This document shows positions 13,425-16,663 of a stretch of 64,000 bases of DNA, in pieces (position 1 is the stretch's first letter; each line of letters starts with the position of its first letter). The DNA is from Aureobasidium sp. EXF-3400. Lineage: Eukaryota; Ascomycota; Dothideomycetes; Dothideales; Saccotheciaceae. A model generated the notes under the pieces. That model saw only the letters and a list, made by a program, of their open reading frames with translations. It had not been told where the DNA came from and ran no database searches. Location of the stretch: positions 28,455 to 92,454 of the forward strand of contig SWBL01000203.1 of NCBI GenBank assembly GCA_024195585.1, given 5' to 3'. The translations under genes and the position numbers were made by a program.

Positions 13425-15044
13425 ATGGCACCTCCAGACTTCAACCAAGCAAGCAGACGTGCCAATCCACCTGTCTACACTTTGCAGGAGGGTAAGTGAC
13501 ATAGAATAAAAAGCGGATCAGCATTAAACTAATATTGCTAAAAGGTGCACCTGTCTCTGATCCTTCAGCTTCCCTGCAGGTCCGTACGACATATGGCGGT
13601 GGTGGTCTAGGTATCCTGGCCGATACTCAGCTCATCGAAACACTTGCCCATTTCCCTCGCGAACGTATTCCTGAACGTGTAGTTCACGCAAAGGCAGCAG
13701 GAGCGTGGGGAGATTTCGAAGTAACAGACGACCTCTCCGACATCACGGATGCCAAATTCCTAAGTGGAAAGGGAAAGAAGACCCCTCTCCTTGCTCGTAT
13801 CTCGACCACTGCTGGAGAGAGAGGTGCTGCCGACACTGTCCGTGATATTCGTGGCTGGTCCATGAAGCTCTTCACCGAGGAAGGAAACCAAGACTTTGTC
13901 TTCAACAGTCTGCCCGTCTTCTTTATCAGAGATCCTATCAAGTTTCCCAGCGTCAACCGTTCTCATAAGAGACACCCCGTAACGAACATTCCTGACCCAA
14001 ACATGTACTGGGACTACCACGTCAACAACCAGGAAGGTATTCATGCATTGATGCATCTCTTTGGTCTCCGCGGTATTCCTGCTTCGGTAAGTTCTCTCCC
14101 AACAATTGCTCCTACACGGCACTAATCGTATGTCACAGCTTCGTCACATCAACGCTTTTGGTGTTCACACATACAAGCTCGGAAAGCAGGATGGCAGCTT
14201 TGTTTATGTCAAGTGGCACATTAAGCCCGAGGGTGGTATCGAAAACCTTCACGCAGATGAGGCACTCCGTCTTGCTGGTGAAGCTCCCGACTACCACGTC
14301 AAGGATCTTTACGACGCAATCGAGCGCGGAGATTACCCCACGTACACCGTGAACCTTCAAATCATGAAACCCAAGGAAGCAGAGGCCTCCGGTATCAACA
14401 TCTTCGATAACACTTTCACCTGGCCTCACGAGAAATACCCTCTGCGCCAAATTGGCAAGATCACGTTCAACAAGAACCCCACCAACTACTTCCAGGATAT
14501 TGAACAGGCTGCCTTCTCCCCTTCAACGATGGTTCCCGGAGTTGGTCCCTCGGCCGATTTGATGCTCCAGGCCCGCATGTTCAGCTACCCAGACGCTGCA
14601 CGCTACCGTCTTGGACCCAACTACCAACAACTTCCTTGCAACAGACCCATCAGCCAAGTCTACTCGCCCTACCAACGTGACGGTCCCGGACGCATGGATG
14701 GCAACTACGGTGCCGATCCCGACTATGTTCGCAGCAGCTACACCAAGCTTGCCAACGGTAGCCACGAACTGGCTACTCACGAGCAGTGGGTCGGTAAAGT
14801 CGCCTTTGCATCGACCGATGTCACCGACAAGGACTTTGAGCAGCCCAGAATACTGTGGCACACCATGCTGGAGGAAGAAGGTGGACGCGAGAACTTCCTC
14901 AAGAATTTGTGTCCTCATCTTGGTGGTGCTTCTGACCCTATCATTGAAGAGGCTATCAAGATGTTTGCCAGAGTCGATGAGGGACTCGGCAAGGATATCC
15001 GTCAAGGTATCAAGAACCACAAGGAGGGAAAGTCTATTGTTTGA
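13425..15044 (+). CDS. Catalase, small-subunit haem type
   Basis: Monofunctional haem catalase (2 H2O2 to 2 H2O + O2). Three exons (13425-13491, 13545-14086, 14139-15044; both donors GTAAGT) give 504 residues, the size of small-subunit catalases. Visible landmarks are the distal His in RERIPERVVHAK, the catalytic Asn in the segment before PVFFIRDPIKFP, and the proximal Tyr region FSYPDAARYRLGPNYQQ. There is no signal peptide, and the C-terminus (KSIV) is not a PTS1 of the SKL/ARL type, so a cytosolic location is the simplest reading. The next gene repairs oxidised methionine, so two oxidative-stress genes are adjacent and co-directional, about 650 bp apart. Co-regulation is possible but unproven. 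Confidence 0.93.
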
Positions 15045-15692: not shown

Positions 15693-16663
15693 ATGGTGAG
15701 AAAGTTCTAGGTTGAGAGGTCGCCAACGCGATTGCTGAGAGTCAAAGGTGCATGCCGACGCGTCCAACTTTGTCTCCAATGTGAGCAAGCAGGAGGCTTA
15801 CACGCAAGTTCTTGAACAAGCAAGAGGATTGTTCTATGAGCAGAGGAATTGGGTGAGTCGTTTTCTCTCTTTTTCTTGTCGTCTTTCTCGATATCAACCA
15901 TTACATGTTGTTGTATTCCCTCGACTATACTTCCCACAAGAAAGAAGTCATCATATCCATTCAATCGCTTTGATGTCTTCAGAATCTATGACCATAGCGT
16001 TTCATGTCCCCAGAACGCTTTTCTTGGAAAGCGATATTCGGAAGTAGAATATGGAGCTGACAGTAGTCTACCTAGGTCTGGTAACCACTCACCGTCCCAG
16101 CACTTCAGCTCTTACCCAACCCCACTAATCACCCTAAACCCACAGCAACCTCTCCAACGCCGCCTCTCTCCTCTGGCACGCCCTCCACGCTCTGCCTGCT
16201 CCTTCCTCTAACACCAACTGGGCTGGCTTCTACGTTCTCGATCCTTCTTCCCCAAGCAACCAATTGATTCTCGGCCCTTTCCAAGGCAAAGTAGCTTGCC
16301 AGATCATCAGATTTGGCAGAGGTGTCTGTGGCACTGCTGCTAGCACCAAGACTACGCAACTCGTGGCTGATGTAGAGGAGTTCCCTGGTCATATTGCCTG
16401 TGATGCTGAGAGTGCTTCTGAGATCGTTGTGCCGATTTTGCAAGACGGCAAGGTGAGTTTCCCGTTGTTCTTTTTTGCCGATTTTCTTTCTCTTGAAGTG
16501 TCTGGGAGCATATTGTGGATGTGTATGGGAATGTGGGCTGATCAAGTTCTAGGTTGTCGCTATCATTGATATCGATTGCGCTGTGAAGAACGGCTTCGAC
16601 GATGAAGATAAAAAGTACTTGGAAGAACTTGCAGAACTCATCGCCGAGTCCTGCGACTTTTGA
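15693..16663 (+). CDS. Free methionine-(R)-sulfoxide reductase (GAF domain)
   Basis: GAF-domain enzyme reducing free L-methionine-(R)-sulfoxide with thioredoxin; yeast orthologue YKL069W. Five exons give 176 residues: 15693-15695 (ATG alone), 15748-15852, 16076-16080 (5 nt), 16146-16452 and 16553-16663. The first donor is GTGAGA straight after ATG. The 5-nt exon GTCTG sits between acceptor CCTAG and donor GTAACC and restores the conserved NWVCNLSN segment. All phases sum correctly. Three Cys at 89, 99 and 123 have the same spacing (10 and 24) as the redox triad of the yeast enzyme, in KVACQ, GVCGTA and GHIACD. Without the micro-exon the conserved domain falls out of frame. The enzyme is probably cytosolic. 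Confidence 0.92.
16076..16080 (+). other. Five-nucleotide micro-exon of the fRMsr gene
   Basis: GTCTG is preceded by a branch-like CTGAC (16057-16061) and acceptor CCTAG, and followed by donor GTAACC with branch CTAAT and acceptor CACAG downstream. It encodes Val plus two bases of the following Cys codon. Flanking introns are 223 and 65 bp. Confidence 0.8.

Follow-up and report, generated by a model that had tools for sequence, protein, structure and literature searches.

Very small coding exons have been described in several systems. The CYP621A P450 genes of Fusarium contain a 1-nt exon (PMC12940212), MPC1 contains a constitutive micro-exon of 4 bp (PMC9929638), and fungal exons down to 6 bp are present in P450 genes of Phanerochaete chrysosporium, which is a basidiomycete (PMC1184071). 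Plant micro-exons of at most 15 nt are long conserved and pervasively misannotated, and examples of 1 nt and 5 nt have been validated by RT-PCR (PMC8831610).

In this work, we describe a 5-nt exon (GTCTG) in the gene of a predicted free methionine-(R)-sulfoxide reductase (fRMsr) of Aureobasidium sp. EXF-3400. The window is the whole stretch of DNA that was analysed, with a length of 64,000 nucleotides. Judging from the sequence, GTCTG is almost certainly a genuine coding exon of this gene that is needed for the full-length product.

The fRMsr exon is similar to the CYP621A exon in that both are tiny, belong to filamentous ascomycetes and code for part of a conserved motif. The CYP621A exon was detected through misfitting exon phases, and all public transcripts but one are reported to be wrong at its motif. 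The two cases differ in that the CYP621A exon has 1 nt, belongs to another gene and is backed by 18 SRA reads, whereas the fRMsr exon has 5 nt and a second genomic copy in place of reads (PMC12940212). The micro-exon of Trichoderma Xlr2 also lies in a coding domain of a filamentous ascomycete and was overlooked by annotation, but it is described as 20 nt long and glucose-regulated, whereas the fRMsr exon is 5 nt long and known from its sequence (PMC11121469). The plant exons share with the fRMsr exon their tiny size, long conservation and misannotation; the plant set is based on RNA-seq, whereas the fungal exon is from one gene, with a presumed deep conservation (PMC8831610).

The fRMsr micro-exon itself is of a known kind because examples of 1 nt, 4 bp, 6 bp and 20 nt are published. 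The initial annotation had placed 5 nt near the lower limit for fungi, which is contradicted by the published 1-nt exon of Fusarium (PMC12940212). What would be new is the likely age of the fRMsr micro-exon and its effect on annotation. Among the titles and abstract beginnings listed for fungal micro-exons and short exons, none is on the fRMsr gene, most subscription journals being outside that search. With its many sequenced relatives, the gene is a clear case from fungi, open to testing, of an exon much shorter than the size at which exons are usually recognised.

The fRMsr gene and its second copy

The host genome comprises 53.4 Mb in 717 contigs. The fRMsr gene is located at 15693-16663 on the + strand of the window, and its product after splicing with the micro-exon has 176 aa. 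The features of the gene are listed in Table 1. The closest matches of the protein are from Aureobasidium, the first among the matches listed being P0001, named A. melanogenum, with 97% identity. The spliced product aligns to yeast YKL069W (1f5m) over residues 3-176 with an E value of 1.5e-63, and the alignment is gap-free through the NWVCNLSN segment. The protein scores above both cut-offs for the Pfam families GAF_2 and GAF, while its NCBIfam match is weak and far under the cut-off. The cysteines of the KVAC, GVCG and HIAC motifs line up with those of 1f5m, and we take these three conserved cysteines to be the redox cysteines of the fRMsr family. The gene is thus a predicted fRMsr related to yeast YKL069W, which narrows the methionine sulfoxide reductase named in the initial annotation to the free Met-(R)-SO reductase family. 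The exon borders around GTCTG and the branch sites that had been noted in both flanking introns (CTRAY motif) are confirmed.

Table 1. Predicted features of the fRMsr gene in the window.
Feature	Positions	Strand	Remarks
Exon 1, coding part, ATG alone	15693..15695	+	Followed by donor GTGAGA; yields the protein start MVHADASNF, shared with relatives; C9 copy arranged alike
Intron 1, 52 nt	15696..15747	+	GTGAGA...CAAAG
Exon 2, 105 nt	15748..15852	+	Ends with AGG AAT TGG (N-W), then GTGAGT
Intron 2, 223 nt	15853..16075	+	GTGAGT...CCTAG; branch motif CTGAC 15 nt before last intron base
Micro-exon GTCTG	16076..16080	+	Codes V and the first 2 nt of the C codon; top score among 156 open models; unchanged in the C9 copy
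Intron 3, 65 nt	16081..16145	+	GTAACC...CACAG; branch motif CTAAT 17 nt before last intron base
Exon 4, 307 nt	16146..16452	+	Starts with C AAC CTC TCC AAC
Intron 4, 100 nt	16453..16552	+	GTGAGT...TCTAG; CTGAT 11 nt before last intron base
Exon 5, 111 nt	16553..16663	+	Ends with TGA

By motif, GTCTG is bounded by two GT-AG introns, each with donor, branch site and acceptor. The CTRAY branch motif is absent from intron 1 in the window and in the second copy of the gene. An ATG-only first coding exon followed by an intron is observed in both copies (15693-15747 in the window; L006 265-332 for contig C9).

The second fRMsr copy in the same genome is located at C9:300664-301629 and was detected at the DNA level, with identities of 78% and 83% in the matches. 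The gene upstream of the window fRMsr gene has a long open frame at 14091-15044, which by eye resembles that of a catalase. Its homologue (83%) also adjoins the C9 copy. The C9 copy is therefore either a syntenic homeologue or a second haplotype, because it has the same upstream neighbour.

The coding sequences of the two copies are identical at 442 of 531 positions. Exons 2, 4 and 5 exhibit 82-86% identity and introns 1-4 exhibit 42-58%, with 51-58% for introns 2 and 3. The initial annotation had suggested a conservation check, and in the C9 copy, matched at 78% identity, GTCTG is retained at the DNA level (5/5) together with its TAG/GTCTG/GTAA borders and a branch motif in both flanking introns. 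Intron 2 of this copy reads GTAAGT...CTTAG with CTAAC 14 nt before its last base, and intron 3 reads GTAAAC...CTCAG with CTAAC 9 nt before its last base. This conservation in a diverged syntenic copy is, short of RNA, the decisive evidence for the predicted exon. A pseudogene or an assembly error was rejected because two contigs (C203 and C9) agree.

The genome of 53.4 Mb contains a syntenic copy, about 80% identical, of two adjacent genes. The assembly is perhaps that of a two-subgenome or hybrid diploid strain. Highly heterozygous hybrid diploids are described for A. melanogenum, with genomes of >46 Mbp by the criterion given in that paper (PMC9535773).

Splicing between exons 2 and 4

GT-AG splice models were enumerated for the stretch between exons 2 and 4, allowing from none to two introns of at least 35 nt, with all other exons fixed. 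The models were scored with a profile of 92 relatives outside Aureobasidium, the rows of which are mostly VC with few deviant models among them. In the window, 156 of 3112 models are open (four with a single intron, none intron-less). The micro-exon model scores highest with 333.8 bits, compared to 330.8 bits for the runner-up. The claim that GTCTG is the only way to keep the frame was thus too strict as worded, although it does give the best-scoring model. The runner-up has a 1-nt exon, the donors GTCGTT and GTTTCA, and the protein NWVTNLSN; the margin is small because the top two proteins differ at one residue. With a profile lead of 3 bits in the window, the case for the micro-exon is built on the quality of the splice sites and on the second copy.

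The 293-nt interval between exons 2 and 4 contains a single AG-N5-GT that leaves an intron of at least 35 nt on either side, and it codes for V-C. In dinucleotide shuffles (20000 for each copy), a V-C-coding AG-N5-GT arises with a frequency of 0.0011 in the window and 0.0007 in the C9 copy; any AG-N5-GT regardless of coding arises with a frequency of 0.55 and 0.24, respectively. The V-C-coding GTCTG exon is more than a chance occurrence.

Skipping of GTCTG causes a frameshift in both copies, which leaves 57 aa before a stop in the window. Retention of intron 2 gives 100 aa and retention of intron 3 gives 38 aa in the window. GTCTG is needed for the full-length product because skipping it or retaining either intron truncates the protein. 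One long intron without GTCTG was rejected because the frame shifts.

In the splicing that we propose, introns 2 and 3 would be excised separately, both being short GT-AG introns that possess a donor, a branch motif and an acceptor of their own. AAT TGG, GTCTG and C AAC CTC would then be joined to give N-W-V-C-N-L-S-N. The mature mRNA predicted to contain GTCTG would read from the end of exon 2 through GTCTG into CAACCTCTCC (TGG-GTCTG-CAAC). Since the sites of introns 2 and 3 are of the fungal type, ordinary intron definition should suffice. Removal would probably be stepwise, as 5 nt should be too short to accommodate an acceptor complex and a U1-bound donor simultaneously.

The exon could also act as a regulated on/off switch, where inclusion gives the enzyme and skipping gives a frameshifted mRNA. 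The 5 nt are not a multiple of three, so that skipping would shift the frame in both copies as described above, and the 20-nt micro-exon of Trichoderma Xlr2 is a published precedent (PMC11121469). The two flanking introns look ordinary in their donors, acceptors and branch motifs, however, and we regard this role as improbable; regulation by skipping GTCTG is possible but unsupported.

Much less credit is given to alternative cryptic exons or donors located in 15853-16145, combined with a lineage-specific insertion, as in P0002 (Aureobasidium sp. EXF-12298). This protein is a deposited model of what is apparently nearly the window sequence, and 155 further models are open in the window. Its 16 additional residues come mostly from intron 2 sequence (FHVPRTLFLESDIR, from the open frame at 15739-16047). 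The stretch that it translates is unconserved in the C9 copy. Among the 708 models of that copy, 78 are open, and the one with the micro-exon is again first, with 323.3 bits compared to 309.9 bits for the best alternative, a lead of 13 bits. In the window, none of the five next-best models (ranks 2-6) does without a weak donor (GTCGTT, GTTTTC, GTTTCA, GTCCCC or GTCTAC), and all of them break NWVCNLSN. The peptides inserted in deviant Aureobasidium models mostly differ from each other, the exception being P0004 and P0010 (both EXF-8845), which are partly alike. This explanation is therefore very unlikely. Least plausible of all is a zero-length recursive splice site, formed by AG/GT at 16074-16077 within one long intron: CTAG/GTCTGG has the form of a juxtaposed acceptor and donor and the exon starts with GT, but re-splicing at GTCTGG would give the skipping product TGG/CAACC, which is frameshifted and truncated, and a stronger-looking donor (GTAACC, or GTAAAC in the C9 copy) is located 5 nt downstream.

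Public gene models at the junction

In total, 242 public fRMsr proteins were examined at the junction; they are the listed matches and not a random sample. The length of the junction is normal in 188 proteins (167 WVC, 7 WIC, 2 WAC and 12 other) and abnormal in 54. W[VIA]C at normal length is exhibited by 176 proteins, Aureobasidium included, and the other 66 are off in pattern or length. Indels fall within residue bin 35-39 in 52 of the 242 models. Every other 5-residue bin has at most three indel models, apart from those covering residues 70-79 and 135-144. Given these 52 indel models in a non-random sample, the fRMsr junction would be a ready benchmark for annotation pipelines if the deep conservation holds.

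Of 120 listed proteins, 12 are from Aureobasidium, and these were compared at NWVCNLSN. Five of them are correct (P0001, P0003, P0005, P0007 and P0008) and seven deviate exactly at the junction (P0002, P0004, P0006, P0009, P0010, P0011 and P0105). The expectation that gene callers would almost certainly mis-model the gene was borne out by these seven and is too strong in view of the five. P0011 (A. vineae) reads like TGG fused directly to CAACC. NWVCNLSN is read by P0007, named A. pullulans EXF-150, and by P0003, named A. subglaciale. For both species, the genome report (strains A. pullulans EXF-150 and, for A. subglaciale, EXF-2481) describes an annotation that drew on RNA-seq (PMC4227064). 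A right protein in another Aureobasidium is alone no proof that its gene has the micro-exon.

Two models of Ascochyta lentis are 99% identical and read VC (P0039) and VS (P0073), where VS fits a donor moved by 5 nt (GTGAG). The start of the protein is also variable. The VHAD[AS]S-type start motif is missing from 14 of the 242 models. In 25 models, this motif is neither at the chain start nor preceded by M. The preceding residue is K or Q in 15 of the 25, as if an AAG or CAG acceptor had been translated.

Age of the exon and matches in contig collections

Some of the wrong models seem to have translated introns. Four models have an insertion before VC that ends with K or Q in every case (Rutstroemia P0019, Didymella P0121, Lasiodiplodia P0154 and Colletotrichum P0226). 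This is compatible with AAG or CAG, an acceptor that would abut the micro-exon. In the protein set, 15.5% of the residues are K, Q or E. Four other models have VW or IW at the junction, followed by Y in P0022, P0152 and P0167 and by C in P0151, which is compatible with GTNTG or ATHTG joined to a GTAY or GTGY donor. P0152 alone fits both introns translated in one protein (NW/VSD...LLQ/VW/YVN...AHS/N). Its back-translation would be V-S-D (GTRAGT) ... L-L-Q (CAG), V-W (GTNTG/G), Y-V (TAYGT) ... A-H-S (YAG/C) and N.

These putative relics are distributed over three classes. Leotiomycetes have a relic of intron 2 only (P0019), Sordariomycetes have intron 2 in Colletotrichum and intron 3 in Cercophora, and Dothideomycetes have both. 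The class was taken from taxonomy records for Rutstroemia, Colletotrichum tofieldiae, Botryosphaeria and Cercophora, and is our assumption for the remaining genera with relic models. Most of the 66 deviant models are without a clear relic and could stem from one awkward intron.

The micro-exon appears to be ancient in Pezizomycotina because some wrong models seem to translate introns in these three classes. Introns 2 and 3 were probably present before Dothideomycetes, Sordariomycetes and Leotiomycetes split, and so was the micro-exon. This argument is made by back-translation from proteins, and VC could also come from a donor GTATG read as coding. We consider it likely that a 5-nt fRMsr exon (GTCTG; GTNTG, or ATHTG where WIC is present) with introns at fixed positions is older than this split and has been widely kept, together with an ATG-only initiator exon. 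At the DNA level, the micro-exon form would be AG-GTNTG-GT between TGG/ and /CAAY, and the intron-free form would be the contiguous TGGGTNTGC. If this age is right, few deeply conserved fungal exons would be smaller, the exon would be a lasting source of wrong models across Pezizomycotina, and a 5-nt exon would splice reliably over very long times in fungi.

Further matches were observed in contig collections. The fungal-type GKVACQ DNA pattern has no match in the viral contigs collection and matches two contigs in the genome contigs collection, both titled Erysipelotrichaceae (L007 6965-6994 and L008 914-943; GPF-x-G-[KQ]-VACQ). A contig of the viral collection encodes an fRMsr relative with 43% identity (L005 5001-5435).
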